Below, in pieces: positions 3,533 through 63,946 of a stretch of 64,000 nt of DNA. The translations under genes and the position numbers were made by a program. Position 1 is the stretch's first letter; every line of letters begins with the position of its first letter. The stretch lies in the IMG/VR virus record IMGVR_UViG_3300040801_002079, positions 252,802 to 316,801 of that record. The stretch is one strand, 5' to 3'. Source of the stretch: a virus. Below the pieces are notes generated by a model. That model did not search any database. It saw nothing but the letters and a program-made list of their open reading frames with translations, and was not told the DNA's origin.

Positions 3533-3535
3533 AAA

Positions 3536-6957: not shown

Positions 6958-6966
6958 ATCCCTATT

Positions 6967-7197: not shown

Positions 7198-7203
7198 AAA
7201 AAA
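7137..7203 (-). other. Predicted -1 ribosomal frameshift signal in gp26-like gene
   Basis: Reading the minus strand: slippery T_TTT_TTT (7203-7197, codons caT TTT TTT), a 6-nt spacer ACCGTG, then CCCTCAACC (7190-7182), which pairs perfectly with GGTTGAGGG (7145-7137) across a 36-nt loop. The zero-frame stop (7164-7166) lies inside the loop. Slippery site, spacing and stem match the classical layout of programmed -1 frameshift signals. Confidence 0.75.
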
Positions 7204-8895: not shown

Positions 8896-8901
8896 ACGAT
8901 C

Positions 8902-31198: not shown

Positions 31199-31206
31199 TA
31201 TAAATA
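31199..31206 (+). promoter_or_regulatory. Late promoter box TATAAATA for tube gene
   Basis: Exact TATAAATA, 44 nt upstream of the gp19 ATG, which has an AAGGAG ribosome site. Confidence 0.8.
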
Positions 31207-33858: not shown

Positions 33859-33866
33859 TATAAATA
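33859..33866 (+). promoter_or_regulatory. Late promoter box TATAAATA
   Basis: Exact TATAAATA, 30 nt upstream of the ATG at 33897, which has a TGGAG ribosome site. Confidence 0.8.
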
Positions 33867-43562: not shown

Positions 43563-43570
43563 TATAAATA
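43563..43570 (+). promoter_or_regulatory. Late promoter box TATAAATA
   Basis: Exact TATAAATA, 40 nt upstream of the ATG at 43611, which has a strong AAGGAG site. It may also drive the glycan-modification operon by read-through. Confidence 0.8.
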
Positions 43571-44034: not shown

Positions 44035-45408
44035 ATGGAAAACACCATATTCGTGCAAATTGCAAGTTACAAAGACCCCGAACTAATACCCACCTTAAAT
44101 GATTTAATTGAAAACGCGAAATATCCTGAGAATATCCATGTAGGAATCTCATGGCAACATGATGATAATGAGTCCCTAGAAGATTTCATGGACGCAGGAT
44201 TTGATGTACTGGGCTTCAAAGAGGACTTTTCTGACATTGAAGATTATCAGAAGATTACAGCGTTTGTTAATATGTCCAAGGGTGGAACCAAGCTCTCTGT
44301 TTTAGATATTGATTATATGAATACTAACGGGGCTTGCTGGGCAAGACATAAAATTCAGCAAATGTATTCCGGTGAAAAGTATACTTTGCAGCTTGATTCA
44401 CATCATCGCTTTGTAGAAGGTTGGGATGAATTGGCTGTAAATATGCTTGAGAGTCTACGTTCTGATGAATGTCCCAAGCCTTTATTGACCGCATATATAC
44501 CATCTTTTGATCCTGAAAATGATCCAGCATCAAGAATTCATGTACCATGGAAAATGGATTTTGATAGATTCATTCCAGAAGGTGCTGTATTTTTCAGACC
44601 ATCATCCATAGATGATTGGGAAGAAAGAGATCGGCCCATGCCTGCACGTTTTTTCTCCGCGCACTTTACATTTGCTGACGGGAAGTTTGCTGAAGAGGTC
44701 CAGCATGATCCCAATTATTTTTTCCATGGAGAGGAAATATCATTAGCTGTAAGGGCGTTTACGCATGGGTACGATCTCTTTCATCCTCATCGTGTTATTG
44801 CATGGCATGAGTACACCCGAAAGGGACGAACCAAAGTATGGGATGATCACACTACCCCTGAAAAAAATAAGGGTAAAGTCGAGCTTGACTGGGTTGAGAG
44901 AAACAATCTATGCCATAAGCGAAACCGAATATTGTTTGGAATGGATGGAGAAGACCCGAATCAAATTGATTTTGGAAAGTATGGTTTCGGCAATGTTAGA
45001 ACTTTACGAGAGTATGAAGAATATGCTGGTATCAGTTTTGAACACAGAGGAGTCCAGCAGGAAACTCTTGATAAAATGGAACCACCGAACAATCTTCCGT
45101 ATGAAACAGAAGAAGAATGGAAAGACACATTCTGTCGATCAAATGACGTAAGAATTTTATTCCACCGAGATGAATTGGGTGAGATAAAGGATGATTACGA
45201 TTTCTTCTATGTCGGCGCACACGATGAAGACTATGACGAAATTTATCGGGAAGATTTAACTGAGGCCAAAATCAAGCAATACCTGCAAAACGAATGGTTT
45301 GATTTTAGACTAATATTTTTAGCAAATCGTATACCTAAAACTTTCACTGTTTGGCCTCACAGCAAATCTGATGGATGGGGTGAACGTATTGTAAAAGATG
45401 TGGAGTAA
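44035..45408 (+). CDS. Polypeptide GlcNAc-transferase-like glycosyltransferase (GT60 type)
   Basis: A 457-residue protein resembling the GlcNAc glycosyltransferase family that includes eukaryotic Skp1-hydroxyproline and mucin-threonine alpha-GlcNAc transferases. Visible motifs: IFVQIASYKDPEL (5-17), VGISWQHDD (36-44), GACWARHKIQQMYSGE (99-114), the metal/sugar-site LQLDSHHRFVEGW (118-130) and FFHGEEISLAVRAFTHGYDL (about 229-248). The last about 90 residues (LFHRDE.. FFYVGAHDED) are an extra domain. It heads a tight five-gene operon, with a GGAGAAAG ribosome site. A cytoplasmic enzyme modifying phage virion protein or a surface glycan is likely; the acceptor is unknown. Confidence 0.8.
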   Translation: MENTIFVQIASYKDPELIPTLNDLIENAKYPENIHVGISWQHDDNESLEDFMDAGFDVLGFKEDFSDIEDYQKITAFVNMSKGGTKLSVLDIDYMNTNGACWARHKIQQMYSGEKYTLQLDSHHRFVEGWDELAVNMLESLRSDECPKPLLTAYIPSFDPENDPASRIHVPWKMDFDRFIPEGAVFFRPSSIDDWEERDRPMPARFFSAHFTFADGKFAEEVQHDPNYFFHGEEISLAVRAFTHGYDLFHPHRVIAWHEYTRKGRTKVWDDHTTPEKNKGKVELDWVERNNLCHKRNRILFGMDGEDPNQIDFGKYGFGNVRTLREYEEYAGISFEHRGVQQETLDKMEPPNNLPYETEEEWKDTFCRSNDVRILFHRDELGEIKDDYDFFYVGAHDEDYDEIYREDLTEAKIKQYLQNEWFDFRLIFLANRIPKTFTVWPHSKSDGWGERIVKDVE

Positions 45409-45411
45409 ATT

Positions 45412-47724
45412 ATGTCTGACGGTATTATTTTATCAGCATATGGCTCCCATAATGCTACAATCTCCATGTACCACAACGGTGAATACCACGTTGTAGAATT
45501 AGAGCGGTGGTTAAATAAGAAGAACTCCGGGTTAGCAGGGTATCTTCCAGCAAAGTATCCACAAAAGGTATTTGATGATGTTATGGAATACCTGTTCGAA
45601 AGAGCAGGTACCCGTAAAGTCGATCTTTTCCTATCCAATTATTTCACTAAGATTGATTTCACTGGATACGATATAAAGGAATTCAGAAGATTTGATCATC
45701 ACCAGTCTCACGCCGCTGGAGCATATTATCAGTCTGATTTTGAAAAGTCTTTAATTTTCACCTATGATGGTGGAGGAAACGGATCATTCTTTAACGTATA
45801 TATTTCTGAAAGTAGAGATACCGGCCCAAAATTGATTGATAGGTTCGATCTTGATCTGGGCTTCCCTTACATGGTTCTAGCCGACCACTTATCTGATATC
45901 AGAAAAGAACCTCTAAACATTGGAAATTTGGTTTATGCTGGAAAGTTAATGGGGCTTTGTGCTTATGGTACCGTTCGAGATGAATGGATGCCCCACTTCA
46001 TGAATTTCTATAAAAGGTTCCGGTATGGCGGAGATGCATTTAAGGGCGGTGCTGAAGTGCGAATTTCAGCAACAAACGAACTGTTCAGTGCAATAGGTGT
46101 TAATGATGTTGATTTCGAACTGGAAACCACGCGGTTTGACGGCGAATTTTCATGGGATATTGCGGCAACGTCACAGGCAGCGTTCGAGGAAGTATTCCTT
46201 GAATTAGCAATGCCTTACATTAACAAGTATAGCCCGGAAGAATATCCCATATGCCTTTCAGGTGGATGCGCTCTTAATGTTCTACTCAATGCCCGATTAT
46301 TAAAGATGGTGGGTAAAAACAATATTTTTGTGCCACCAAATACAAATGATTGCGGCATAGCCGTTGGTGGATTGCTAGATTACATAAAGCCGCGTGAAGT
46401 TGTGGATTTGACGTATTCTGGATTGCCCATAATGGACGAAAGAGAGTACACTGCACTAATAGAAGATAATCCTGTAAAGGCTATAGATGAAATCACCTTA
46501 GATGACTTATCAACCCTACTAGCTGAGAATTATATTGTAGGAGTGGTCAGGGGAAATTCTGAGCATGGTCCTAGAGCGCTGGGTAATCGTAGTATATTGT
46601 GTAATCCAGTGGGTGACATGAAGGATGTCCTTAATAAGAAGGTGAAAGACCGTGAATGGTATCGCCCATTTGCCCCACTGGTAAGATATGAGGATGTATC
46701 CACATATTTTGATTTCGATTCAGAAAGTCGCCACATGACGTTTGTTGCAGATGTTAGGGATACTGAGAAGTTTCCTGCCATCACGCACGTTGACGGCACC
46801 GGACGGTTGCAGACAGTTACCCGCGAACAAAATGAGTTCATATATGATTTAATAACACAGTTTAAAGAAAAGGCTGGGCATGGTGTTATTCTCAATACAT
46901 CCTTTAATGTTAACGGTAAACCAATTCTTACCAGACTAAGTGATGCCTTTAAGATTTTAATGGATACCGAATTGGATTGTGTATATTATGATGGAAAAAT
47001 AATTTTCAAAAGTAATAGAGAAAATGAATTTAATAATCTTTTAAGGTATGAGCCGGTGTCCATGGATCACACAAACTTCACCGTGTATGTTGACGCTTTT
47101 ACAAACAGTGAAGATGAATTCAAAGCACTTCTGCCAAAGTTGGATGAGCTTCAGATGCGCTATAAAAAATTAATGATAGTTCTTAATGAACGTCATATGC
47201 ATTTATTTACAGTTAAATCAGATGCCACTATAATACCCAGAGGGCAGAGGCAAATGTTTTATAGGGACATGATTGGTGGCGCAGGCTTTCCAAATAAAGA
47301 AGTTGATTTCATTAAGCCTCTGTGGTTTAAGGACATAATTGAAAACAACGCTTTGCAGTCAGATTATCACATTGTTGTCGATTTAACCTTTGAAAAATCC
47401 TTTGAAAATTTCAAAGAGTTTATGACTAAATATATGGGCGAAGCAGATGTCGCAAATAGTATCATTACTGACACTGAAGACTTTTCAACAATAACAGTGA
47501 AAGAGTTCTTATCTAAGCGCAGTAATTACGTAGAAACCAATGATAGATATCCTAGATTCGGGTTATATGCCGGATATTCAGAACTAATGTCTTGGTTTTT
47601 AAGAACATACGAAGGAAACCTACGCTACCATATGCTAAATGGGCGAGGAGAATCCAGTAGAGACTATTTAGCGATTCAATATTTAGAAAACGAAGGTAAA
47701 TTTTTAATTTTGGAACAACAATGA
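45412..47724 (+). CDS. Carbamoyltransferase, NodU/TobZ type, with extra C-terminal domain
   Basis: A 770-residue enzyme expected to transfer a carbamoyl group from carbamoyl phosphate via carbamoyl-adenylate to a sugar hydroxyl. The Kae1-like N-terminal domain has the metal histidines in DHHQSHAAGAYY (H96/H97/H100) and DGGGN (119-123). The YrdC-like C-terminal part shows GNSEHGPRALGNRSI near 381 and LNTSFNVNGKPI near 494. Residues after about 545 form an additional unrecognised domain with a second alpha/beta pattern, making it longer than the usual 500-600 aa. It begins 3 nt after the preceding gene and overlaps the next by 4 nt. Confidence 0.88.
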   Translation: MSDGIILSAYGSHNATISMYHNGEYHVVELERWLNKKNSGLAGYLPAKYPQKVFDDVMEYLFERAGTRKVDLFLSNYFTKIDFTGYDIKEFRRFDHHQSHAAGAYYQSDFEKSLIFTYDGGGNGSFFNVYISESRDTGPKLIDRFDLDLGFPYMVLADHLSDIRKEPLNIGNLVYAGKLMGLCAYGTVRDEWMPHFMNFYKRFRYGGDAFKGGAEVRISATNELFSAIGVNDVDFELETTRFDGEFSWDIAATSQAAFEEVFLELAMPYINKYSPEEYPICLSGGCALNVLLNARLLKMVGKNNIFVPPNTNDCGIAVGGLLDYIKPREVVDLTYSGLPIMDEREYTALIEDNPVKAIDEITLDDLSTLLAENYIVGVVRGNSEHGPRALGNRSILCNPVGDMKDVLNKKVKDREWYRPFAPLVRYEDVSTYFDFDSESRHMTFVADVRDTEKFPAITHVDGTGRLQTVTREQNEFIYDLITQFKEKAGHGVILNTSFNVNGKPILTRLSDAFKILMDTELDCVYYDGKIIFKSNRENEFNNLLRYEPVSMDHTNFTVYVDAFTNSEDEFKALLPKLDELQMRYKKLMIVLNERHMHLFTVKSDATIIPRGQRQMFYRDMIGGAGFPNKEVDFIKPLWFKDIIENNALQSDYHIVVDLTFEKSFENFKEFMTKYMGEADVANSIITDTEDFSTITVKEFLSKRSNYVETNDRYPRFGLYAGYSELMSWFLRTYEGNLRYHMLNGRGESSRDYLAIQYLENEGKFLILEQQ

Positions 47725-48614
47725 GTGCACATTTTGTAACTTGCATATATAATGGATTAAATCAAAGTGAACTGTGTGGCAGGCTAAATCGTGAACGCCC
47801 GTATAAGTATTCACTTTCAACCATAGCAAAAACCAATAATAAGATTATATGTTATACTTCCCCGGATGAACTGAGTGGAATGCGATCAGATTTTCCAAGG
47901 GAGCGGTTTCCTAATATCGAATTACTCCCATGGAGCCTATATGCAATGACATTCCATAAGCGGGTAAATTCTGTACGCAACAAGGACGCACATATATACA
48001 GGGAGTCCCCAGACTGGAGAGATCGCTGTGTTGAAATTATGTGGGGCAAATTCTTATTCATAAAAGATTCAATTGTAAACAATCAAGAATCTGAATATGT
48101 ATACTGGATTGATGCGGGCATTTCACATCCGGGAATAATTCATAGCAGGTTTAACCCACACTATGATCATAATATTGGGTTTGTTCGGGATTTGGATAAA
48201 TCAACCTACCCCACCACATTTAAAAACGACTTGATATTTGACGAACAGTTTATGGATAGCCTGATTAACTATACGGGTCCCGATAAGATATTGAACGTTG
48301 CTGCAAAGGGGCCACAGCATCCCAGATTAAGCTACGATAATAAATTCATTGGTTCAGTTATAGGTGGAATCTTTGGTGGTCACAGGGATTTAATGGAAAA
48401 ATATTGCAATGAGGTTACAGCGCAGTTTGAAGAATATCTTTATAATAAGGAACAACTGTGCAAAGAAGAGCAGATTATGACCGAGATACTTTCAGAAGGA
48501 ACTCTACCAATTAAGACATTCATATTTGATACATGGTACCATCCTGACTGGGAAGATCGATATAATGAGTCTCAGGTTAGTTTTTGCGACTTCTTTGATG
48601 AGATTAGAAAATGA
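47721..48614 (+). CDS. HtrL/WlaTC-family putative glycosyltransferase
   Basis: A 297-residue protein with the hallmarks of the HtrL_YibB/WlaTC family, found in surface polysaccharide loci and thought to be sugar transferases: an aromatic-rich N-terminal strand, VEIMWGKFLFIKDSI, the YWIDAGIS motif near 127-134 (acidic metal or sugar-site residue) and GGIFGG near 215. The acceptor is unknown. It overlaps both neighbours by 4 nt (ATGA), so translation is coupled to the carbamoyltransferase and the next HtrL-like gene. Confidence 0.75.
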   Translation: MSAHFVTCIYNGLNQSELCGRLNRERPYKYSLSTIAKTNNKIICYTSPDELSGMRSDFPRERFPNIELLPWSLYAMTFHKRVNSVRNKDAHIYRESPDWRDRCVEIMWGKFLFIKDSIVNNQESEYVYWIDAGISHPGIIHSRFNPHYDHNIGFVRDLDKSTYPTTFKNDLIFDEQFMDSLINYTGPDKILNVAAKGPQHPRLSYDNKFIGSVIGGIFGGHRDLMEKYCNEVTAQFEEYLYNKEQLCKEEQIMTEILSEGTLPIKTFIFDTWYHPDWEDRYNESQVSFCDFFDEIRK

Positions 48615-50266
48615 AAAATCAACTAACATTAGTTACAGCATTATTTGACTTGGGCAGAGAGCATCTACCCGAGGGGTTCAGTAGGGGGTTTGATCATTAT
48701 CTGGAATGTTTTGAAAAGCTCTTACAGGTCGATTACCCGATGGTTATATTTGTTGATAAGGAATTAAATGATTGGGTAAATGAACGTAGACAGGGTAAAC
48801 AAACACATATTGTAAATAAATCAAGAGAAGATTTAGAGTCATTTCCTTTTTACACTGAAGTTCAAGAAATAAGAACAAGCCAAGACTGGATCAACAGGGC
48901 TGGGTGGATTCCAGATAGCCCGCAAGCTAAGCTCCCATTATATAATCCCGTTGTAATGAGTAAGCAGTTCTTTATGAATGATGCAACACTTATGAATATT
49001 TTTAATACGAAATATTTCATGTGGATCGATGCTGGCATATCGAATACCATAGGTGATCCAAAGGGATACATTGATGAAGAATTTGGTGATAAGATATCCA
49101 AAGTATTCAGTAACAACAAGATGCATTATCTTTGCTTCCCCTATGAGCCTGCTGCTGAAGTTCATGGATTTGAAAAAGACGCAATGTTTCGCTATGCGGG
49201 ACAGGAAACAAAACATGTAGCAAGAGGCGGTATATTCGGTGGCAGCATAGATGCTATTAACATAATAAACGAATCATATTATGCTGAGTTGTCAGAGACT
49301 ATACGATCAGGGTATATGGGAACAGAGGAGAGTATATTCACGATTCTCACATACAAGCACAAGCATCTATGCACTTGTCATATGATTGAGTCTGATGGAC
49401 TCGTGTATAGATTTTTGGAAAAGATAAAGAACATGAAAAAGGATTCATATAACTCATTATTGGCAGTATATGTATTAACCTTTAATTTACCTAAACAATT
49501 TGCATTATGGGCTGAAAAATTTGAGAAGAACTTAGAAAATAATCTTAGGGATGAAACAGTACGCTATGTAATAAACAACTCCACTGACCCTAGCGTGGAA
49601 GCCGAATACAGCGAACTGTTTAAAAAGTATGGGTTTGAAGAACTTAAGTTTGATAATATTGGGATATGTGGAGCTAGACAGGTAGCAGCAGAACATTTCG
49701 AAGAAAATAATCACAAGTATATGATTTTCTTTGAAGATGATATGTTACTATGTGGATCAGAGGATGAAGGAAAATATTGTAAAAATGGATTCAGAAAATA
49801 TTTTCCAGATATTATTAGCAAATCTATGTCGATAATGGAAAGTGAATCATTGGACTATTTCAAGCTTTGCTTCTCAGAATTTTACGGTGATAACCATGAT
49901 AACTGGGCATGGTACAATGTCCCACAGGAAAAAAAGGACAAGTGGTTTTTAACAAATAAAAACTCAAGTGACCCAAAGAAGGTTAGAATTCATTACACCA
50001 GTGCATTTAGAGGGGTACCATATGCTGTGGGCGAGTACCACTATTGCAATTGGCCCCTGCTATTTAACAGAGAAGGCAACAGAAAGATATTTCTGGATAC
50101 CAAGTTTGAACATAAGTTTGAACAAACATGGATGAGTTTTGTAATGGAACTTATTGTGGATAAAAAAATTAAACCCGGATGTTTGTTGGGCAGTGCCATA
50201 ACACATCATAGGGAGTTTCACTATAGTAAAGAAATTAGGCGAGAAAATGAACACTACACCAATTAA
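48611..50266 (+). CDS. Fusion: HtrL/WlaTC-type plus GT2-like glycosyltransferase
   Basis: A 551-residue two-domain protein. Residues 1 to about 275 repeat the HtrL/WlaTC layout (TLVTALFDLGRE, FFMNDATLMNIFN, MWIDAGIS near 137, GGIFGG near 206). From about 280 a second Rossmann-like domain begins (LLAVYVLTFNLPKQFALWAE), with NNSTDP and then FFEDDMLLCG near 373-382, an acidic DD motif typical of GT-A glycosyltransferases. It could add two sugars in sequence. It overlaps the upstream gene by 4 nt and the downstream sulfotransferase by 20 nt. Confidence 0.75.
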   Translation: MKNQLTLVTALFDLGREHLPEGFSRGFDHYLECFEKLLQVDYPMVIFVDKELNDWVNERRQGKQTHIVNKSREDLESFPFYTEVQEIRTSQDWINRAGWIPDSPQAKLPLYNPVVMSKQFFMNDATLMNIFNTKYFMWIDAGISNTIGDPKGYIDEEFGDKISKVFSNNKMHYLCFPYEPAAEVHGFEKDAMFRYAGQETKHVARGGIFGGSIDAINIINESYYAELSETIRSGYMGTEESIFTILTYKHKHLCTCHMIESDGLVYRFLEKIKNMKKDSYNSLLAVYVLTFNLPKQFALWAEKFEKNLENNLRDETVRYVINNSTDPSVEAEYSELFKKYGFEELKFDNIGICGARQVAAEHFEENNHKYMIFFEDDMLLCGSEDEGKYCKNGFRKYFPDIISKSMSIMESESLDYFKLCFSEFYGDNHDNWAWYNVPQEKKDKWFLTNKNSSDPKKVRIHYTSAFRGVPYAVGEYHYCNWPLLFNREGNRKIFLDTKFEHKFEQTWMSFVMELIVDKKIKPGCLLGSAITHHREFHYSKEIRRENEHYTN

Positions 50267-50822
50267 AAAGTATTTTATTATCAGTCTTCCCCGGACGGGA
50301 ACAAAAAGCTTATGTAACATGGCTCACACGCTTGGGTTTAAATTTAAGCATGTTCCATCAGTTACGCTGCCTCGCCTACTCAATGAAAACGAAATACAGG
50401 TATTTGCTGATACGCCAATATTTACCCCCTCAACATTCACCGAACTTTGCAATAATGAAAATCATTATTTTATCTACATAAAGCGAGACATGGAAAGCTG
50501 GGTTGATTCTCTGGAGCGGGTTAATTTACATAATAACTATATGGCTCTCCATACAGGAAAAGTGCCAGAGAATTGTATGAACAAAATGGACCGGGAATGT
50601 CTAGAAGAGCTATTTAATAATCAAGATTATTCCACTGAGCTAGCTAAAGAGCGGTACAGATGGCACTATAATAAAGTGACTCACATTATTCCAGAGGACA
50701 GGCTTCTTGTGTATAGCTTCGATATGGGATGGGAACCTCTAGCTGCGTTCATGGAAAAAGAGCCTCCCGTGGCAGATGTGCCACAAATCAACAAAAACAC
50801 AATGTTTGATCCTATTGTTTAG
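50247..50822 (+). CDS. Sulfotransferase family protein
   Basis: A 191-residue P-loop protein. The 5'-phosphosulfate-binding loop is ISLPRTGTKSL (12-22), and the 3'-phosphate-binding segment is YIKRDMESWVDSL (77-89; R80 and S88). These are the PAPS-binding signatures of sulfotransferases. It would place sulfate on a sugar or tyrosine, probably using host PAPS. It is shorter than most cellular sulfotransferases (250-300 aa) but matches short phage forms. It closes the operon, and its end overlaps the convergent tail gene by 4 nt. Confidence 0.82.
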   Translation: MNTTPIKKYFIISLPRTGTKSLCNMAHTLGFKFKHVPSVTLPRLLNENEIQVFADTPIFTPSTFTELCNNENHYFIYIKRDMESWVDSLERVNLHNNYMALHTGKVPENCMNKMDRECLEELFNNQDYSTELAKERYRWHYNKVTHIIPEDRLLVYSFDMGWEPLAAFMEKEPPVADVPQINKNTMFDPIV

Positions 50823-52060: not shown

Positions 52061-52068
52061 TATAAATA
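52061..52068 (+). promoter_or_regulatory. Late promoter box TATAAATA
   Basis: Exact TATAAATA, 28 nt before the small membrane-protein ATG at 52097, which has an AAGGAG site. It is divergent from the pair at 52010-52033. Confidence 0.8.
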
Positions 52069-52096: not shown

Positions 52097-52246
52097 ATGT
52101 TTTTTTCATTTATGCTAGGCGCATTAGTTATGTTGGTTTTTGGTGTATTCGCACCCAATACATTTACCAAAATGACCGGAATGGTTCGTTCACTTTGGGA
52201 TAAAGTTAAAGAAGAAGAACAAACGGACGATTTCTCGGGAAAATAG
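52097..52246 (+). CDS. Small single-helix membrane protein, zero frame
   Basis: A 49-residue peptide. A hydrophobic helix fills residues 1-20 (FFSFMLGALVMLVFGVF), followed by a short charged tail (KMTGMVRSLWDKVKEEE). The stop TAG comes directly after the slippery sequence GGGAAAA. It has an exact late promoter and strong ribosome site, so it should be expressed. It may be a membrane anchor, lysis-related peptide or tail accessory. Through a -1 shift it can be extended by 62 residues. Too short for family recognition. Confidence 0.65.
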   Translation: MFFSFMLGALVMLVFGVFAPNTFTKMTGMVRSLWDKVKEEEQTDDFSGK

Positions 52247-52327
52247 AACGGGGCAATGATTTGCTTGCGGGGCTGTGTCCCGACAACGAAGATGAGTGTA
52301 TTGAGCGCTTAAAGCAACATTGCCCCG
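52237..52327 (+). other. Predicted -1 ribosomal frameshift signal
   Basis: Slippery G_GGA_AAA at 52237-52243 in the zero frame, a 5-nt spacer TAGAA that begins with the zero-frame stop, then CGGGGCAATG (52249-52258), which pairs perfectly with CATTGCCCCG (52318-52327). Inside the loop a second hairpin CGGG/CCCG (52268-52271 with 52279-52282) can form. GGGAAAR heptamers are known slippery sites (lambda uses GGGAAAG), and spacing and stem fit the classical layout. Confidence 0.8.
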
Positions 52328-52431
52328 ATTTAGATGAAAAATGTCTTGCAAGTTTATCCCAGATGGACTACTATCTTGTGGGAAGGGAAAACTATAATTT
52401 AACCCCTGAACAAACAGATAACAAGTCTTAA
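52243..52431 (+). CDS. -1-frame extension: four-cysteine domain
   Basis: Open frame of 62 codons entered by -1 slippage on GGGAAAA. It starts IERGNDLLAG, contains four cysteines spaced CX6CX7CX6C within an acidic helical region, then a tail ending DNKS. There is no ATG at its beginning; the nearest candidate is a weak TTG at 52261. A fusion with the upstream peptide would give a 111-residue protein with an N-terminal membrane helix. The paired cysteines suggest a helical hairpin stabilised by disulfides or metal. Independent translation is possible but less likely. thyA follows after 13 nt. Confidence 0.7.
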   Translation: MERGNDLLAGLCPDNEDECIERLKQHCPDLDEKCLASLSQMDYYLVGRENYNLTPEQTDNKS

Positions 52432-52444
52432 CTGGGAGAAAACT

Positions 52445-53311
52445 ATGACAATAAACCCGTTTGATGCTGAGTATCACCGACTCGGCAATAAAATCTTATC
52501 AGATGGATTCTGGAAAGAAAATAAAAGAACCGGCACTAAATGTTTAACACTTCACGGCGAATCATGCACCTATGACCTTTCTACTGGATTTTTTCCAGCG
52601 CTAACCACAAAAAAATTATTCTTTAATGCCATGATTGGTGAATTATTGGGATTCATTCGTGCAGTTGATAATGCGGCTGACTTTAGGGCACTTGGGTGTC
52701 CCTTTTGGGATGCTAATGCTAATGAAACAGAGGCATGGCTCAATAACCCCAATAGAAAGGGAGAAGATGATCTAGGTCGAATCTACGGCGTTCAAGGCAG
52801 ACATTGGATAAACCGACATGGCGAAGAGATAGATCAACTAAAACAGATCATCGATAAGCTCTCAATTGGTATAGATGATAGAAGATTAATTATGAATTAT
52901 TGGAATCCGGGAGAAATAAATGAACAGGCATTGCCCCCGTGCCACGATTTTTACCAATTCCATTTAAGGGGTACAACATTAGACCTATCTATGTATCAAA
53001 GATCAAACGATGTACCACTTGGTACACCAATGAATATAGCTAGCTCATCTTTGCTATTAATGTTGGTCGCCAGAATAACGGGCCATTTTCCCGGAAAGTT
53101 CACTCATATGATGGGGGATGTTCATATCTATGATAATCAAGTGGATTTATTTAAAGAGCAGATGTCTCGCGCACCATATTTTCCACCTAAGATGTGGATA
53201 AGCCAAGATATAAAGTCATTGGAAGACTTGGAAACATGGGTGACATTTAATGATTTTACAATTGAGGAATACGAGCATCACCCAGTTATAAAGTTCCCGT
53301 TTGCTGCTTAA
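52445..53311 (+). CDS. thyA: Thymidylate synthase ThyA
   Basis: A 288-residue folate-dependent thymidylate synthase that methylates dUMP to dTMP for phage DNA synthesis (T4 td equivalent, 286 aa). The catalytic cysteine is in ALPPCHDFYQF (about C166), followed by the dUMP-site MYQRSNDVPLGTPMNIA and the HIYDNQVDLFKEQ block. Near the start, RTGTKCLTLHG is the phosphate-binding Arg region. No intron interrupts it, unlike T4 td. A GGGAGA ribosome site lies upstream. It stands between tail-fibre genes rather than with the replication genes. Confidence 0.95.
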   Translation: MTINPFDAEYHRLGNKILSDGFWKENKRTGTKCLTLHGESCTYDLSTGFFPALTTKKLFFNAMIGELLGFIRAVDNAADFRALGCPFWDANANETEAWLNNPNRKGEDDLGRIYGVQGRHWINRHGEEIDQLKQIIDKLSIGIDDRRLIMNYWNPGEINEQALPPCHDFYQFHLRGTTLDLSMYQRSNDVPLGTPMNIASSSLLLMLVARITGHFPGKFTHMMGDVHIYDNQVDLFKEQMSRAPYFPPKMWISQDIKSLEDLETWVTFNDFTIEEYEHHPVIKFPFAA

Positions 53312-54135: not shown

Positions 54136-54143
54136 TATTTATA
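54136..54143 (-). promoter_or_regulatory. Late promoter box TATAAATA
   Basis: The minus strand reads TATAAATA, squeezed between the stop of the giant adhesin (54145) and the fibre gene start (54111). Confidence 0.8.
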
Positions 54144-54144
54144 C

Positions 54145-57100
54145 TTATCGCGGAGCTAAACCGGTAATTGTTATGGTATCAATACCGTAATCGTTATTCC
54201 ATATTGTTCCCGTGGTTCCCAACGTAACCTTTATTCTTACGCGAGTATTAACATGGTTAGCAGAACTCAAATCAACATTTCTGTAAGACCATATTTGTGC
54301 TCCGCCTGTGACAACCTTATCCGGATCGGACGGACCACCAAATTCTGGGCCAACATCAACCCATCCAGCGCCACCCTCATTTAGTTGAACCTGACAGGTT
54401 GCATTGTTATCATTACCGCGTTGGTTGGTATAGAACTCAATATAAAAATCACTGTATTGTGTGCTGTCCAGTGTTGTATTAAATTCCATAAAGAATTCAT
54501 CACCGCCCACTGTGGGGCTTGATGATTCTGTGTATACATATCCTTCTGGGCTTCCACCCTGACCCGATGTTGGCCCCACACCACTTGAAGCCGTATCGTT
54601 ACTATCCCATTTCCACCGCCTATTTGCTCCTCCCGGAGTTGCTGTTGTTCCAAGTGGGTCTGTCCATGTAAATTCGGTAACATCACCCGTAGTCGATGAT
54701 GGGAATGAATATGGTCCATATACATCCTCAACTGGTGGACCAACAAGGGAATCATAATTTGTAATAGTTAATTCATCGTGATCACTGTTAACTATATGGA
54801 AAATTGGCGTAACTTTGGAATCGTAATCCGTTATTGTAATGGTATCATGATCTGATAAAATATCCACCGGATCAGCAGGAGTTCTATACAACATTATGGT
54901 ATTACACTCATCAGCCAAGGCTGGTCCACTCCAATCATAATCCATACCAAATGTTGAATCATCATGGTTCCATCCACCCAATTGCGCCAAATGAATAATT
55001 TTATAATATTGAGGAATATTAACTTGGCTAGTTGAATATTGATAATTTCTATCATATGTTTCATTTAGGGCTTTATCATGATACACCACTTCTGTAATAT
55101 AACCATTCAATAGTCCTCCATTAGGATCGGTTCCGATATATTTTAACCTAAAGTCGGCCTCTGGCTCCCCTGATGACGGATTAAGTGCAAATCGGAAAGA
55201 CGTATACCCGCTAGTTACATATTTGTTCCTATCAGCATCCACGCCATCTATGAATAGCGATATTATTCCATCTCCTTCATGCATGACCGTAATATTGAAC
55301 CACCTATAATATCCCATCGTTATATCAATGCCCGGAGATGTAAAATTGGTGTAAGTAATATCATTAGTTTCAAACTTGGTTCTTATTCCAAATGTTACAT
55401 CCTGTCCTATGCCATCACCTTCTGCATACACCTCAAATTCATCTCCACCATCTCCAAATTCGGAACTAAAGATTGGATGCTTCATACTTAGATCAAAAGT
55501 ATTGGGACGTAGGTAGACCATTGCACTAAGTGTGAACTCTTCTGTTATTGTTCTGGTTATGGGATTAGTTAGAGTTATACTTCCGTTGGACCCAAAGCAC
55601 CCGAGCGATCCAACTTTGTGGAATCCAAAGTCGAGACTATGCTTAGGCTTGCTTGTACCAGCAGCGATTAAATCATTTGACCCGATTTGATCTGAAATTA
55701 CATCATCGCTATCCATTCTCCAGTAATGCGTGGGATTATCATACTTAACTAAGTATGGGTAATCATATTCTCTGGAAGATACAGTTGTATCCCATCCGGT
55801 AAACCCAGTCGGCGGGGTATATTTGAACTCAGCAGCGTTTGTTCTGAATATAGTTCTAGTCTGTCGTGGGCCAACTCCTGTCCCACTATACTCACCTGTA
55901 ACGATGTAAATGTAATCTGACATGTCAAGCGCTGAAACGTCCGTTAATGTGAATAATGGATCAGTTCCAGTGGAAGGATCACCCTGTATCCAGTTTCCAT
56001 TTATTGAAATCCACATGCCTCTATTATCAATATCAACAGCTATTCCAAGTGTTCCAGTAAGCGGGGCATCAGATGTTGGGGTTGATATGCCATTAGTATA
56101 CAACTCCCCTCTGGAATCATACATGTAATGAAATTCTGATTCTCCCAAATAGGTTAATGAGTTTTCAACAGCCAGCAGTCCATATGGAAGTGTATAGTCT
56201 ACATAAGATACACCAACCCGGAATCCCGGAGTTTCCACATCACTCTTAGCTATATTAAAGAACAACTCAGCGTAATGTTTCCCACTATTATGTCCTATAT
56301 GGGATGAATATTCATAATCTGGGGTCGTACTAACTTGTGCAAGCATTGCTTGTCGCGCATATCCTCTAAAATCATTGGGTGTAAAGTAATGAGTGTACGG
56401 ACTTTGGGTATACACTGGAGTAGCGTAAGCCTGATTAATGTCGGTTACCCAATTTGCATAGCGTGGAGATTTGAATGTGTATTCGGGCTGCGATCCGGGA
56501 AGACCACAATCAAATCGATATAACATATGGGCATCAAAGTTGTAGCCCTCATCAAAATCCATACTATATTTTGGAACATCATCTTCAATAAACCCAGACC
56601 CAATTGTAAAGATGTATCTACCATCATCCGAAAGAACAAAGTTTGCACCAAACAGATCAGACATGTAACTTTGTATAGGCTCTATATATTTAATAAATTT
56701 ATATTCTTGATCAGTATCATCCCAATCAAAAATATCTAGTTTACCGTGGGTTCCGCTTTGCGTGAAATTCTGAAACATCTGAGATGTTACTATCCTATTT
56801 CCATCCCTCGACATCGCCACAAACGTATCATCACTTTCGTCTACATCAAATTCCAGAACTGGATGACTTATCCTGATCCGCTGTACGAATTCCCAATTTC
56901 CCGGAGTTGTTTCTTTAAACACAATTGCACCAGATGCAAAGTATGAGAATGTATCATCCCTAATAGTTTGTCTTGATGCATAATTGAGTACTATAGTTGA
57001 TCCATCTGATGATGCGCCACAATACGAAGTATTATTCCATGGGGTTTTTCCTATATATGTACCATTTGAGGTTTTATATGCGCCAAAATCATCATATATG

Positions 57101-60100
57101 GTGCTCTTTAATAGCTCCGGATGAGTTAAATCAAGAGAACCTTCATATTCCCATGTCGTGTTACCCACATTATATTTCCAAACTCTTGGAGCTTGCACCT
57201 CAACATTATCATGCATATTGAAAGTTCCGCTTGTCATTATTATGCGAGACCCATCGGGGACAACATAAAAATGTTGCTCAACCGATTCAGTTGCATAAGA
57301 TGACATAGCATCTTCTACAACAAGCGCCTCATCTAGATTCCAAACACTTCCATTTTGACGGAATATTTCATTATCTGCGACTACAACTGAGCCGTCATCG
57401 GAACATGTGATGCCCCTAGCTCTACGATTGCTTGGCTTAACACTAAGCTCCATCTCATCAATTTTTAAATATGTGCCATCAAGCTGATCTTCATATACAT
57501 GGATTTTATGTGGCAGGGGAGAGAAAGTGGTTCCCAAGCTTTCGTATGTGAAAATATATTGACCATTATTTGACATAACTATAGGGCTTGACCCTAATGT
57601 ATCGCCATAAAAATAGGTGGTCCAATTATCAGACACATCCTTTTTCATTACCAACAATTTTTCATACGAGTTTTCGTTTACATATGCAGCATATACTGAT
57701 CCCTCAGATGATATAGCAAACTCATCCCCATCAACCATGAAAGTTTGCCCTATATTTTGATCGCCCTCTGTAGACCACGGGGTTTGTACATCTAGTTGGA
57801 ACATAATTCCTGAATAATAATTTGATGCTGTATATCCACCAGCCCCGTATATTTTTGTACCACTACTATTCCACGCAGATGGATTTATCCGAGAATATAA
57901 TTCTATGGCATCAGAAGCTTGTGATATCGTATCTATCTCCCACGGGGTTGATAGCGTGTATTGCATTACAATTCCACCTTCAGCCTCTCTAATGGTAAAT
58001 AATTTTGTACCATCCGGCGAGAAGCTTAGAGAGCTAAAATCGTCTGAAGTGTTTATATACTCTCCAAGGGTCCCACTAACATATGATTTTGAATCATACG
58101 ATATAGTCGATAGCTCCCACGGAGTGCTGAGGGTGTATTGATAAATTGTGTCATTTCCAATTCCCGCATAGTATAATTTTGTACCATCCGGCTTAATATA
58201 AAATCCACCTGAACCAGAGCTTTGGGCTGTAAAATCATAAGTTACTGAATTGTACGTTGCTGTTCTTAAATCCCATGGTGTTGTAAGATCGTATTCATAT
58301 ATATCAGCAGCAGTATCAAGTAAGTACATTTTATCGCCTGACGCACTTAACGAAATGTTAATAGCCGATCCACCTTCGGTGAAGAAGAAGCAACCATCAG
58401 TTAAAAACATGGTGCTAACATCACCCGGAGTTGTCAAATCCCCCTGAAGCAATGTATTTCGGGCATTATTATAGTAAACGGATGAGTCATATCCATCGTA
58501 TGTTACATATATTTTACTTTCATCAGATGATACCCCTGCAAAATCTTTAACTGTTAAAGATGATACAGTAGAGCTTGTGCTATCTAATGATATACCATTT
58601 ATATCCCATGCGGGAGATATATTGTATTTAAGTAAACTATTTCCCTCAAATGTGTACAGTGTATCTCCGCTAGAGTTAATATCAAGGCCAAGATATGGAG
58701 TATTTCCTGATAAATTTGTATAGTTTCCTGTAAATGTTAATGTTCTAATGTCTCCCGGAGTCCCTGCTTCATATTGAAAAACTGCGCCCGAATCTCCTGA
58801 TATGAAAAAGCGGCTTTGATCATCATTCCAGTAAAATCCATTCAAATCATCTTCAAATGCTGAATGATCAAATACCTCAGCGCCCAAATCAAATGAGTCA
58901 AAAGACCATGCAGAACTTATATCATATTGTAATCCCCGATTAGAACCACCAAAGTAGTAACAATTTGATCCATCGGGGCTAAAATGAATAACTAGTGGGT
59001 AAATTGGGTTATCAGCAGAATAATCATATAGATCGGAATCTAATGTAGCTCCAGTTAAATCCCAAGGAGTTGGCAATGTATAACTGCGGAAATAATATCC
59101 ATTGGTAGATTCTGCTAGATATAATTTAGTACCATCAGGTTTAAAGTAAAAAGAAGTGCTAAGCGCCGAGCTTATCGCTGAAACGTCAAGTGATACACTA
59201 TCATATGTTGCCGTAGTAACATCCCATGGCGTAGATGCAGTGTATTGGGACATATTTTCATTATCTGAACTGAATGTGTACATCTTGGTACCATCATCGT
59301 TCCACCATGGTCCATATGTATTTTGACCCTGAGCACTAACACTTAGTCTATTCCCAGAATAGGATGCCGATGACAATAACCAAGGAGTGGATAAGTCAAC
59401 CTCATATACATATTCGGAACTAACATAGCTCGTATATAATTTAGTACCATCGGCATTAAATGACAGCCCAGTAAAGCTACTATCCGAGTTACCACCAGTT
59501 AATTCATACATTGTTATATTGTATTTTTCAAATGAAGCAGTGCTGAAATCCCATGGGGTTGATAATGTAATCTTATAAAGTAGGGTATAGGAAGAGCTTG
59601 TGCCATACGCTAGAAGAACTTCAGTTCCAGCATCATTAATATGAATACCATGAGGATTTTCTCTGAACCAATCCCTGTAATCAAGTACAATACCATTTGA
59701 TGTTCCAGTTGATAAATCCCACGGCGTACTAAACGTATAATGATAGATATAAAAGGTATCTAACTCAAAGGCTTCGGTTCCATCCGGGTTAAAGTGAAGA
59801 CCCAGACCATAACTCATTACTTGAGAATTATTTGAATACACCGCAGTACTGACATCCCACGCGACAGATAAATCATATTGAAACGCACTGGCTCCGCCAT
59901 GCACAACCATTGTTAAACCATCGGGACTGAAGTTTATATCCTGTGGACTGGTATCTTGTGTTCCTGTATAGAAAGAAACATTATCATAAGATGCTGTACT
60001 TACATCCCATGGAGTAGATAATGTATAAGCGTATACAGTATCTTCGGAGTTTGTGAATACAAACATCTTGGTACCATCAGGTTTAAAATGGACACTTAAT

Positions 60101-63100
60101 GGGTTTGTTGTCTCATTTGAAACATCAAACATGTCAACATATGTTAACGAATCAGGTTTAATTTCGTAAGGAGATGAACATGCCCATTGAATTATAGCAT
60201 CATTTGGAACTCTAGCCACAGTATACACATAATTCCCGGTGGAATCAAATGTCGCATCATAGCTATAACCATGCTCATATGAACCAAAAAAGGCTTCATT
60301 GGACATAGCTGTAGTTAGATCATATGGAGTTGAAAGGCTGTATTCTCTGAATCCAGCATTACCCGTTTGTACAAAAACTTTATCGCCGGTTGCGGAAAAT
60401 TCCATACCCTTTATGTTGGTATTATTGTTATATCTTACATCATTGAAGTCCACATAATTATCATGGAGGGATGCAGTTCTTAGGTCCCACGGCGTTGATA
60501 AATTGTATTTAACAAGCGTATCAGTTGAGTTTGAACCCGCATAAACATAAGTTCCGTCATCCGATACACGTATTGTCCACTCTGACATTGTATCAGACCT
60601 AATATTGTCATATACCGTTGTTGATATGTCCCATGGGGTTGTTAAGGTGTAATGATATACATAACTAGAAGCCCGCAAAAAGAACTTCGTTCCATCGGAT
60701 GAGATATCGAAACTATAAAAACTATAGCCAATTTGATCTGCGGTGCTGAACGACACATAATCATATGTCGCTGTACTTATATCCCACGGTGTTGCTACAC
60801 TATATTGGCGCAACCTATCCCCCGATCCATCGAATACATAAAGCTTCGTACCATCAGGCTTAAATACAAAACAATCAATAATATTGTATATGGGGTTAAA
60901 CATCTTATCATCATAAGATGCCGTTGTGACATCAAATGCTGTAGAACAGGTATACTGAAAAATATTATCTGTATAATTATTTTTTATATAAAGTTTTGTG
61001 CCGTCTGCACTAAATCCCATATATCCAACTTCATCAGCGGCAGATATTTCATCAGGGAAAAAGGTGTCAGCATTATAGTATGAACCACTTATATCCCATG
61101 GAGATGGGCATAAGTATTCTGATATATACCCTGAATCGCTATTGCATATCCAATATTTTGTACCATCGGGCTTAATTTTGAAGGAATCAACATTTACTCC
61201 ACCGATAAGTGCGGGTCCATGCGCCGAATACTGCATAGTATTAATATCATAAGGAGTAGAGCATGTGTATTCAATTAGTCTATAAGAATCAGTGTCAAGT
61301 AAAAATACTTTAGACCCATCATCATTAAATTGAGGTTTTATTGGTAGATGTGAGGATACGCCCATAGCTGAAGTTGCTGAGCTTGGTATTAATGAATCTG
61401 TTATACGAAGTGATTTCTGTGTTGACGTATTGACTGAATTAATATCCCAAGGAGTCTCGCATTCAACTTCTACTAAATATGCTGAATTAGTGTATTGCAA
61501 TTCATTTGTGTAATATAGCTTGCTGCCATCATCGGAAAATCTATATCCCCACTTAGTAATATCCACATAGGTGCTGGTTGACGTATCTGTAGCCAAATAT
61601 CGCTCTGGAGCCTGTAGATTTCCTTTAATAGTGTTATTATGCATTTCTAGAGTGCTTAGGTCATCAGCTACACGCATATCGGCCCTGTACACTGCATCAG
61701 TGTCTGCCGAATAGAAAAACATTTTCGTATCATCTGGAGATAACCACGTAGATGTTATATACTGGCTGGCTCTTGTTTCTAGGTTGACGGATTTTTCATT
61801 TCGTCTAAATGGATGTTCGGGGAATATTTTCTGAACATTGTTATAATCTGATGGGCGTTCAACAACAGTGTAGCTATTATATAAATCTAATATTTCGGAA
61901 GCATCAAGTGTATACTGGTTATAAAAACGTATATGCGATATAAAATATTTTAAATTATTATCAATCCATCCAAAATCTCCAATGCTAGTAGATGTAAGGC
62001 TAGGATTTATATGGGATGTTAAGGCCAATACTCCATTAAGGTAAATTTTTATAACTTTATCAAATGTGGGGGTAAACCGCAATCCAGTACCACTGCCACC
62101 TGATACAAGAGGAGGCCAATAGGTATCAGGAAGCGAGGAAAATGATCCATACTCTAATACATTATATGTATATACTAAACCCGTACTACTAACATTTGTG
62201 ATTTCAATCTGAGTTGGAGTAATAGCATTATCAGTGATATAAACAATATCTCCAATCTCATATCCTGTTCCACTACTGGTTTTAGAGAAACTAGTTGGGG
62301 TAGCTGGGTATGACGCAACTTCAGATGTTGCAAATATATGTGTCCATTCTCGCCAAGGAATACTATTATATAACGTTTCCTGTCTCTGAAAAACTATTGA
62401 TTTATTATTTGGATTGTATGAGAACACTGAGTCCAATATAGGGTAGTACGTCTCCGCTCCAGCCCCGACAACGGATTCTGGGTAAAACCAAAAGCCATAC
62501 CCAAATTCTCCGCCATCCACTGTAACATTTGCATCCAGTGTTAACTCTTTCGCGCCTTGAAATACATAGGATGCAGATGATGTACCCTCAGCATCTTGAA
62601 CGAAAGTTCTAACTTCCTTATTTGGATAGGATGAACTTACATATATTTCCTCGCTGTTAACAGGGGTTGGGTTAGTGCCAGTATCATATATTGCCGTACC
62701 GATATCTTCAGACATCTTCCATTCATGATATGTTTTAGGTGCCGCAGCAATAGCCGAAGGTGTAGGTGTAATGGTTGGCGTAACCGTCATAGTAACAGTT
62801 GGTGTAACAGTAGCTGTCTGTGTTGGTGTAAATGTAGGAGTAACTGTTGGTGTAACCGATGCCGATGGTGTAGCTGGAGGCGTAGTGGTCATCGTTGGAG
62901 TCATGGTTAACGTTGGTGTTGGTGTTGGGGATGGAATGAAACATTCATCATCAACCTCAATTAATGTTATAACTCGCTCAATATCGACAAATATAGTAAA
63001 TGGATTAATAACATATCCAATTTTCTGCAAAGCGGTATTTTGCGGAACAGCGGTGGTTATTTTACCATTATCATCCAACCAAACTGATGTACCGTAAGGT

Positions 63101-63918
63101 TCATTAAAATTCCAAAAATCTCTGTTTTCCACAACCCCGTGCGTTACAATTTTACCAATTCTATCCTTAACAAAGTCTTCTACTGCTATACCAATGCACG
63201 GTCTTTTTGGTTCAAGCTTGGAAGCTAATCCATACTTTTTTGGACCCCTCAAACAAACTCCGTGGAATTTTGGAACGGGTTCAATTGCTCTACCATTAAT
63301 TTGAGTATTTTCAATCTTATATTGGTTATCCATATCGTCCTGAACACTGAAACTTGTTTCAGCCATCATGAACTCGCTTGTGCTAAATTTACCAGACTTT
63401 TTAATGGGAACATTTTCACTAGTAAATAATATGTGACCAGCATTAGAGAATATATTTCTATTGACTTGTGACCCATTTGGGAATATTTCTAAGCTTGCAT
63501 TTTTATGAACCTTACCTGCAAACACCCTAACTACGGTTTTCCATGCCCTTCCGGAGAAGTACTTCATTTTGTTTTCATTAATTAAAAAGAAGTGCTGCCC
63601 TCTGACTGGCTTTGTGGGAAGTGATGTTCCAAATCCACCATCTTTATTAGGATCGACAGTGGTAAAATCGAATGTTCTTTCACCTGTAGTTAAATCTATA
63701 TCCCAGTATAGCCAAGCATCTGAATCTTTAGGGAAAGGCCCATGCCATGCGTTTAATATGCCGTGATCTTCAGTGAAAAGGTAATTACTTTTTCCGTGTG
63801 CAAGTGTTATGATGGTTGGTGAATCTTCTACGTTAATATCCACTCCGGTATTGGTCAATACCAGAAATGGTCTCGTATCTTGCTGTCGGTAAATACCCTG
63901 TCGAAATTCAATTAACAT
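54145..63918 (-). CDS. Giant tail adhesin: Pro/Thr linker, lectin-like domains, propeller repeats, SPRY, MAM-like end
   Basis: A 3257-residue receptor-binding candidate. Order: N-terminal attachment region (1-328); Pro/Thr linker (about 328-391); LamG/concanavalin-like domain (about 395-680, WFYPESVVG and IYLNGVLAL); about 24 repeats of roughly 50 residues (about 770-2050) built on SPDGTKLY-type strands followed by LSTPWDLSTA-type turns, as in beta-propellers; a second propeller-like section (2050-2480); a SPRY-like domain (about 2507-2720, SGKHYAELFFNI, LGIAVDIDNRGMWISING); a second LamG-like domain (about 2727-2967); a C-terminal MAM/jelly-roll-like domain (about 3057-3257). A late promoter lies upstream. 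It is probably the host-binding appendage. Confidence 0.75.
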   Translation of the reverse strand: MLIEFRQGIYRQQDTRPFLVLTNTGVDINVEDSPTIITLAHGKSNYLFTEDHGILNAWHGPFPKDSDAWLYWDIDLTTGERTFDFTTVDPNKDGGFGTSLPTKPVRGQHFFLINENKMKYFSGRAWKTVVRVFAGKVHKNASLEIFPNGSQVNRNIFSNAGHILFTSENVPIKKSGKFSTSEFMMAETSFSVQDDMDNQYKIENTQINGRAIEPVPKFHGVCLRGPKKYGLASKLEPKRPCIGIAVEDFVKDRIGKIVTHGVVENRDFWNFNEPYGTSVWLDDNGKITTAVPQNTALQKIGYVINPFTIFVDIERVITLIEVDDECFIPSPTPTPTLTMTPTMTTTPPATPSASVTPTVTPTFTPTQTATVTPTVTMTVTPTITPTPSAIAAAPKTYHEWKMSEDIGTAIYDTGTNPTPVNSEEIYVSSSYPNKEVRTFVQDAEGTSSASYVFQGAKELTLDANVTVDGGEFGYGFWFYPESVVGAGAETYYPILDSVFSYNPNNKSIVFQRQETLYNSIPWREWTHIFATSEVASYPATPTSFSKTSSGTGYEIGDIVYITDNAITPTQIEITNVSSTGLVYTYNVLEYGSFSSLPDTYWPPLVSGGSGTGLRFTPTFDKVIKIYLNGVLALTSHINPSLTSTSIGDFGWIDNNLKYFISHIRFYNQYTLDASEILDLYNSYTVVERPSDYNNVQKIFPEHPFRRNEKSVNLETRASQYITSTWLSPDDTKMFFYSADTDAVYRADMRVADDLSTLEMHNNTIKGNLQAPERYLATDTSTSTYVDITKWGYRFSDDGSKLYYTNELQYTNSAYLVEVECETPWDINSVNTSTQKSLRITDSLIPSSATSAMGVSSHLPIKPQFNDDGSKVFLLDTDSYRLIEYTCSTPYDINTMQYSAHGPALIGGVNVDSFKIKPDGTKYWICNSDSGYISEYLCPSPWDISGSYYNADTFFPDEISAADEVGYMGFSADGTKLYIKNNYTDNIFQYTCSTAFDVTTASYDDKMFNPIYNIIDCFVFKPDGTKLYVFDGSGDRLRQYSVATPWDISTATYDYVSFSTADQIGYSFYSFDISSDGTKFFLRASSYVYHYTLTTPWDISTTVYDNIRSDTMSEWTIRVSDDGTYVYAGSNSTDTLVKYNLSTPWDLRTASLHDNYVDFNDVRYNNNTNIKGMEFSATGDKVFVQTGNAGFREYSLSTPYDLTTAMSNEAFFGSYEHGYSYDATFDSTGNYVYTVARVPNDAIIQWACSSPYEIKPDSLTYVDMFDVSNETTNPLSVHFKPDGTKMFVFTNSEDTVYAYTLSTPWDVSTASYDNVSFYTGTQDTSPQDINFSPDGLTMVVHGGASAFQYDLSVAWDVSTAVYSNNSQVMSYGLGLHFNPDGTEAFELDTFYIYHYTFSTPWDLSTGTSNGIVLDYRDWFRENPHGIHINDAGTEVLLAYGTSSSYTLLYKITLSTPWDFSTASFEKYNITMYELTGGNSDSSFTGLSFNADGTKLYTSYVSSEYVYEVDLSTPWLLSSASYSGNRLSVSAQGQNTYGPWWNDDGTKMYTFSSDNENMSQYTASTPWDVTTATYDSVSLDVSAISSALSTSFYFKPDGTKLYLAESTNGYYFRSYTLPTPWDLTGATLDSDLYDYSADNPIYPLVIHFSPDGSNCYYFGGSNRGLQYDISSAWSFDSFDLGAEVFDHSAFEDDLNGFYWNDDQSRFFISGDSGAVFQYEAGTPGDIRTLTFTGNYTNLSGNTPYLGLDINSSGDTLYTFEGNSLLKYNISPAWDINGISLDSTSSTVSSLTVKDFAGVSSDESKIYVTYDGYDSSVYYNNARNTLLQGDLTTPGDVSTMFLTDGCFFFTEGGSAINISLSASGDKMYLLDTAADIYEYDLTTPWDLRTATYNSVTYDFTAQSSGSGGFYIKPDGTKLYYAGIGNDTIYQYTLSTPWELSTISYDSKSYVSGTLGEYINTSDDFSSLSFSPDGTKLFTIREAEGGIVMQYTLSTPWEIDTISQASDAIELYSRINPSAWNSSGTKIYGAGGYTASNYYSGIMFQLDVQTPWSTEGDQNIGQTFMVDGDEFAISSEGSVYAAYVNENSYEKLLVMKKDVSDNWTTYFYGDTLGSSPIVMSNNGQYIFTYESLGTTFSPLPHKIHVYEDQLDGTYLKIDEMELSVKPSNRRARGITCSDDGSVVVADNEIFRQNGSVWNLDEALVVEDAMSSYATESVEQHFYVVPDGSRIIMTSGTFNMHDNVEVQAPRVWKYNVGNTTWEYEGSLDLTHPELLKSTIYDDFGAYKTSNGTYIGKTPWNNTSYCGASSDGSTIVLNYASRQTIRDDTFSYFASGAIVFKETTPGNWEFVQRIRISHPVLEFDVDESDDTFVAMSRDGNRIVTSQMFQNFTQSGTHGKLDIFDWDDTDQEYKFIKYIEPIQSYMSDLFGANFVLSDDGRYIFTIGSGFIEDDVPKYSMDFDEGYNFDAHMLYRFDCGLPGSQPEYTFKSPRYANWVTDINQAYATPVYTQSPYTHYFTPNDFRGYARQAMLAQVSTTPDYEYSSHIGHNSGKHYAELFFNIAKSDVETPGFRVGVSYVDYTLPYGLLAVENSLTYLGESEFHYMYDSRGELYTNGISTPTSDAPLTGTLGIAVDIDNRGMWISINGNWIQGDPSTGTDPLFTLTDVSALDMSDYIYIVTGEYSGTGVGPRQTRTIFRTNAAEFKYTPPTGFTGWDTTVSSREYDYPYLVKYDNPTHYWRMDSDDVISDQIGSNDLIAAGTSKPKHSLDFGFHKVGSLGCFGSNGSITLTNPITRTITEEFTLSAMVYLRPNTFDLSMKHPIFSSEFGDGGDEFEVYAEGDGIGQDVTFGIRTKFETNDITYTNFTSPGIDITMGYYRWFNITVMHEGDGIISLFIDGVDADRNKYVTSGYTSFRFALNPSSGEPEADFRLKYIGTDPNGGLLNGYITEVVYHDKALNETYDRNYQYSTSQVNIPQYYKIIHLAQLGGWNHDDSTFGMDYDWSGPALADECNTIMLYRTPADPVDILSDHDTITITDYDSKVTPIFHIVNSDHDELTITNYDSLVGPPVEDVYGPYSFPSSTTGDVTEFTWTDPLGTTATPGGANRRWKWDSNDTASSGVGPTSGQGGSPEGYVYTESSSPTVGGDEFFMEFNTTLDSTQYSDFYIEFYTNQRGNDNNATCQVQLNEGGAGWVDVGPEFGGPSDPDKVVTGGAQIWSYRNVDLSSANHVNTRVRIKVTLGTTGTIWNNDYGIDTITITGLAPR
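57770..61620 (-). repeat. About 24 beta-propeller-type repeats in the giant adhesin
   Basis: Units of about 150 nt each encode a DGT-x-x-(Y/F) strand and an (S/T)TPWD turn. They are diverged enough that no long exact DNA repeat is obvious, so they are old duplications. The number would suit several propellers of 6-8 blades. Confidence 0.8.
62740..62935 (-). repeat. Pro/Thr-coding linker in giant adhesin
   Basis: This stretch encodes TPTxTxTPT-type residues (about 328-391), the same composition as the tail of the 3404-residue protein. Confidence 0.85.
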
Positions 63919-63938: not shown

Positions 63939-63946
63939 TATTTATA
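63939..63946 (-). promoter_or_regulatory. Late promoter box TATAAATA for giant adhesin
   Basis: The minus strand reads TATAAATA, 20 nt upstream of the ATG (63918). The remaining bases to 64000 show no gene. Confidence 0.8.

Follow-up and report, generated by a model that had tools for sequence, protein, structure and literature searches.

How is an open reading frame expressed when it has no good start of its own, opens inside the end of another gene in the −1 frame and stops just ahead of a thymidylate synthase gene? Such an arrangement lies in the 64-kb window (the whole stretch of DNA analyzed here), which is the final part of a 316,801-base viral record. A small gene for a membrane peptide (ORF1, 52097-52246) is followed there by ORF2 in the −1 frame (to 52431) and by thyA (52445-53311), and the three are flanked on both sides by minus-strand tail-region genes. 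The initial annotation had proposed a programmed −1 frameshift by which two products of 49 and 111 residues share one membrane helix. The features on which our analysis rests are as follows.

52061-52068, + strand: T4-type late promoter box TATAAATA; the same box stands upstream of ORF1 in the related loci L004 and L002
52086-52091, + strand: Shine-Dalgarno-like AAGGAG of ORF1, read directly
52097-52246, + strand: ORF1, the 49-aa zero-frame product, from the reading of the frame and the homologues in L002 and L004
52237-52243, + strand: slippery heptamer G_GGA_AAA (GGGAAAA), in phase and aligned with the L002 and L004 homologues
52243-52431, + strand: ORF2, the −1 frame, a four-cysteine module ending QMDYYLVGREN, from the frame, homologues and dN/dS
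52244-52246, + strand: zero-frame stop TAG, abutting the heptamer; TAA in L002 and L004
52249-52266, + strand: 5' arm of the stimulatory helix (10 bp, 2-nt bulge, 6 bp), from folding, covariation and RNAalifold
52312-52327, + strand: 3' arm of the same helix, from the same three analyses, coding for K-Q-H-C-P of ORF2
52445-53311, + strand: thymidylate synthase (ThyA), 288 aa, with its own ribosome-binding site GGGAG (PF00303, E = 2.2e-83)

The DNA polymerase of the window shares 43% identity with its counterpart in Xanthomonas phage XacN1 and 41% with the one in Stenotrophomonas phage RAS14, and all three have a common gene order around the locus; judged by these two likenesses, the virus is a giant bacterial virus, a jumbo myovirus of the XacN1/RAS14 group. 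Although these closest named relatives by DNA polymerase resemble the window in gene order round the locus, their annotation is without ORF1, ORF2 or ThyA at the corresponding place. A cluster of glycosyltransferase-like and carbamoyltransferase genes at 44035-50822 also has an order common with XacN1 (ORF334-330).

The zero frame of ORF1 runs from the ATG at 52097 to the TAG at 52244-52246 and codes for an N-terminal membrane helix (about residues 2-18; best 17-residue Kyte-Doolittle mean, 2.47) and then for a basic and acidic tail. There is no charge before the helix and K/R stands directly behind it, so the C-terminus is predicted to be inside, which suggests that the four-cysteine module of the fusion product faces the cytoplasm. 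The −1 frame opens at 52210 and, as had been described, stays open for 62 codons past the slip (stop TAA, 52429-52431) with the cysteine spacing CX6CX7CX6C, the cysteines standing in two near-repeats, CPD-x4-C-(I/L)-x2-L. Joined to ORF1, it would give a 111-aa protein with the junction ...DDFSGK-IERGNDLL....

Neither ORF1 nor ORF2 matched Pfam, PHROGs or NCBIfam, the joined product found no match among 50,697 phage records, and the PDB sequence matches of the two frames (THO subunit 1, an F-box protein) were short, chance-like similarities that we set aside; thus the earlier statement that no described family came to mind still holds in all of these collections. The structure model of the module was poor (mean pLDDT 61, three short helices at low confidence), and in this low-confidence form it matched no PDB fold. 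A CHCH-type twin-cysteine hairpin was rejected because it needs twin CX9C or CX3C, whereas the module has CX6C-X7-CX6C.

We searched IMG/VR with ORF2, and then with the ORF2 alignment, its most conserved motif, ThyA and the neighboring tail protein as queries. ORF1 was found in three independent loci, the window, L004 and L002, all of them metagenome-derived viral contigs (L003 is the L002 sequence from a second sample), and every one has retained the slippery site. L002 and L004 have the same neighbor genes as the window. The motif QMDYYLVG, searched in viral contigs and GTDB genomes, returned known loci only, plus the chance matches L042, L047 and L048; the 41 loci examined for the neighboring tail protein held no additional ORF1; and a DNA pattern of slip site plus stem gave 23 stretches, of which all 20 outside the known contigs were chance. 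A YC1 match seemed to span the module, but proved to run by chance into the gene ahead of it. In L002, two flanking minus-strand ORFs (1819-3549 and 6802-7962), by eye endonuclease-like and TnpB-like respectively, are likely mobile genes.

Evidence for slippage comes from the way in which the heptamer differs among the three loci. ORF1 ends with TCG GGA AAA TAG in the window, with GAC CCA AAA TAA in L004 (C_CCA_AAA) and with GAT TTA AAA TAA in L002 (U_UUA_AAA), so that an in-phase heptamer directly precedes the stop in all three homologues. The heptamers align at the same place without gaps, with the repeated letter X being G, C and T, and the zero-frame residue encoded there is Gly, Pro and Leu, respectively; because the residues differ, the repeated letters appear to be retained as a slip site and not for the protein. 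The initial annotation was correct on the heptamer and the TAG, but it placed the end of the heptamer one base before the TAG is completed, whereas the heptamer ends immediately before the TAG. The zero and −1 frames overlap by 34, 16 and 7 nt in the window, L004 and L002, with one in-phase heptamer in each overlap; the L002 overlap consists of nothing but the heptamer, which leaves no other place for the shift there. As a background, 0.36% of codon pairs form an in-phase X_XXY_YYZ with Y = A/T and NNN is identical in 10 of 187 in-phase N_NNA_AAA, both counted in the genes of the 64-kb window and not over the whole genome. The majority of X_XXZ_ZZN heptamers cause a shift in E. coli, and Y_YYA_AAR has been noted as shift-prone (PMC4066793). 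Upstream of the heptamer, a Shine-Dalgarno-like stretch is seen in L002 (AAGGA, 12 nt) and L004 (GAGGG, 6 nt), with none clear in the window.

Behind the heptamer, the spacer (TAGAA, 5 nt) and the perfect 10-bp outer stem (52249-52258 with 52318-52327) are present as the initial annotation had them, and the inner hairpin it mentioned proved to be two: inside the stem, a 2-nt bulge is followed by 6 further bp and two inner hairpins. The spacer is 4 nt in L004 and 11 nt in L002, where a stimulatory structure is expected at about 5-8 nt. The window sequence folded at −39.1 kcal/mol against −22.0 ± 3.0 for its shuffles (z −5.7), and none of 200 shuffles equaled it; L004 folded from its own sequence gave z −3.8. 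The stem of L002 is weak alone (z −0.95 to −1.6), and its lowest-energy fold nonetheless includes the helix. The 111 nt from the heptamer onward align without gaps among the three loci; the helix core AAUG/CAUU is paired in all three, and the inner helix reads UUGCU/AGCAA in the window, GCGCU/AGCGC in L004 and UUUUU/AAAAA in L002. With these three sequences, pairing held in 85% of 48 cells, compared with at most 50% when one side was slid, and six pairs had changed on both sides, a covariation value reached by 3 of 500 shuffles. RNAalifold, to which the helix was not supplied, recovered the same helix. The 3' arm codes for the conserved K-x-H-C-P, whereas the residues coded by the 5' arm are unconserved, which argues that the 5' arm is the side that follows. 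Rfam gave no match, and a covariance model search returned the three known sites only (next best E 0.25).

The A-run at the junction might instead be taken to mean that the fusion is made by slippage of the transcribing polymerase. At four A in each of the three loci, the run falls short of those known for bacterial slippage, and the conserved XXX and the helix would then be purposeless; we give this reading hardly any credence.

Could ORF2 be made from its own start, by re-initiation past the ORF1 stop and without any frameshift? L002 does have an ATG 2 nt past its TAA (4995), from which its ORF2 could be made in this way, and the window has a TTG at 52261. However, that TTG is the single candidate in the window, where no ATG or GTG stands ahead of the cysteines, and it lies inside the stem, in agreement with the earlier remark that ORF2 has no good start. 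L004 lacks any ATG, GTG or TTG ahead of its four cysteines, the start positions are unconserved, and re-initiation leaves both the XXX identity and the covarying helix unexplained. We therefore regard it as improbable.

An indel from sequencing or assembly, or a gene in decay without a functional signal, has to be considered too, as the sequence is metagenome-derived. Against this, three diverged sequences share the −1 arrangement down to the codon, and one of the three is known from two samples (L002 and L003). Moreover, ORF2 of the window and L002 differ with dN 0.29 and dS 1.97, and the identity between the two peaks in the −1 frame, the sole frame without stops, which points to purifying selection on that frame. 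Chance or a sequencing error as the cause is very unlikely because two diverged contigs keep the design at the same place, and for an indel or gene decay we see almost no room. Since heptamer, helix and −1 frame are all kept in L004 and L002, the comparison with relatives that had been called for came out in favor of the programmed frameshift and its two-product design, which the three diverged loci support strongly. We are highly confident that the cassette is a real −1 frameshift of the ordinary bacterial type, as far as comparative sequence evidence can tell.

What the shift would add to the membrane peptide is indicated by the gene downstream, a context of the module that had been overlooked. 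The window ThyA scores 279.9 bits against PF00303 (Pfam gathering cut-off 24.3) and is an ordinary ThyA; those of the L004 and L002 contigs are 64-69% identical. In the window and L004 a stop codon stands between module and ThyA, whereas in L002 the −1 frame continues straight into ThyA, for which L002 has an internal start, too, behind AAAGGA. In four further loci (L005, L010, L011 and L014) a shorter module forms the N-terminus of ThyA with its own ATG. These correspond to the case named earlier as refuting the frameshift, a second frame with its own start and no slippery site; such loci do exist, but they are without ORF1. The ORFs of L005, L011 and L014 start near 4992-4995 and that of L010 runs from 4444 downwards on the minus strand. 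A ThyA with such an N-terminal cysteine extension ending QMDYYLVG(R/K/Q)E is apparently undescribed, and in L010 the extension is reduced to its last part, CPTQMDYYLVGREC. A ThyA tree places the frameshift loci together (83/69) and the own-ATG fusions in a separate clade (99/98). In the structure model of the L002 fusion, pLDDT was below 50 in the latter half of the module and in the linker, and the module was not docked on ThyA. The module thus adjoins or is fused to ThyA in every relative found, and on this ground the four-cysteine stretch is taken to be a ThyA-linked module.

The box TATAAATA begins 34-37 nt before ORF1 in all three frameshift loci (−37 in L004, −34 in L002) and was not found upstream of the four ORF1-less loci (L005, L010, L011 and L014); it fits the late expression suggested earlier. 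Elsewhere in the window the box occurs, for example, at 31199-31206, 33859-33866, 43563-43570, 54136-54143 and 63939-63946. The 12 sites in the window are no more than chance in number, and nearly all stand, by inspection, just upstream of a same-strand gene start. Two very long ORFs of the window, at 16785-26999 (+) and 54145-63918 (−), of 3404 and 3257 aa, carry Thr-Pro repeats (TPTxTPT), as does an L004 ORF at 8300-9622 (−); all three are probably tail-region proteins.

Position and promoter leave a second reading of the product, namely that the frameshift is real and the protein serves a virion, tail-region or late membrane role, the ThyA link being ancestral and lost where the module was split off. 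The cassette lies between tail-region genes, with the same neighbors in L002 and L004, behind a T4-type late box, and a stop divides the module from ThyA in the window and L004. The thymidylate synthase of T4, moreover, has been reported as a baseplate component. However, the module adjoins or is fused with ThyA in every relative found and has no family match to lysis or tail proteins. We regard such a role as a serious possibility that falls short of probable; the lysis or tail accessory role put forward initially is disfavored by the tie to thymidylate synthase. A tail assembly chaperone of the G/GT kind was rejected: it would be expected next to the tape-measure and major tail genes and with chaperone domains, whereas ORF1 is a 49-aa membrane peptide next to ThyA, and neither ORF1 nor ORF2 had a PHROG or Pfam match.

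In the reading that we favor, with ThyA as the partner, the small gene upstream of thyA would be transcribed late, as the TATAAATA box suggests. Most ribosomes would stop at the TAG, and the 49-aa peptide with its single membrane helix would be released. A minority would pause at the branched helix while Gly- and Lys-tRNA occupy G_GGA_AAA and would slip back one base to GGG_AAA, aided by the helix and probably also by the adjacent stop codon, and would add the 62-residue four-cysteine module to give the 111-aa membrane-anchored protein. The conserved slip site, the covarying helix and selection on the −1 frame support such slippage, which presumably takes place in vivo. The long product would keep the module at the membrane, on its cytoplasmic face, where the module may bind or position ThyA, as fusion and adjacency suggest; contact between the two is presumed, since they are separate in the window and L004. 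In the closest relative, L002, the same shift would yield a single membrane-helix/four-cysteine/ThyA protein. Free ThyA would come from its own start, and a minor fraction of it, or of a precursor-synthesis complex, would be tethered at a fixed low ratio. That the job of the cassette is to tether a minor ThyA fraction, or a ThyA-containing precursor-synthesis complex, to the inner membrane is quite possible, though we would not call it probable. More tentatively still, frameshifting may set the inner-membrane-anchored fraction of ThyA or of its dedicated partner module.

If true, this would be a translational switch for placing nucleotide synthesis at the inner membrane. The cassette links a membrane anchor with a module that elsewhere is fused to an enzyme of DNA-precursor synthesis, and it brings within reach of a test the old notion that precursor synthesis of phages has a defined place in the cell. 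Apart from tail chaperones, capsid extensions and mobile elements, phages have few conserved frameshift genes, and the comparison is unusually clean here, as the slip-site letter changes yet stays repeated and the helix covaries. It also presents a module gene that passes between fused, split and frameshift-joined states.

Among phage thymidylate synthases (PF00303), the downstream gene of the window is an ordinary member, and compared with phage ThyA in general the present clade adds an N-terminal or upstream four-cysteine module with QMDYYLVGRE. The cdd gene of Bacillus subtilis, where the slip also lies at the gene end beside a stop, resembles the window cassette in having a −1 slip on A_AAR in a pyrimidine-metabolism gene. 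Its extended cytidine deaminase, made at the slip A_CGA_AAG, has been called incidental (PMC5009743). Unlike in cdd, the heptamer here is of the X_XXY_YYZ kind, the site has been conserved together with its helix, and the slip adds an entire module. Lambda G/GT, dnaX and the IS3 family likewise have an in-phase X_XXY_YYZ, a stem at typical spacing, an open −1 frame and an early stop, and the lambda-type site G_GGA_AAG differs from the G_GGA_AAA of the window in its last base only. In contrast to those systems, a membrane peptide is here joined to a ThyA-linked module and the stop abuts the heptamer; both the place in the genome and the proteins are other than for tail assembly chaperones. The frameshift is of the ordinary bacterial type, whereas the gene pair and the kind of product are new.
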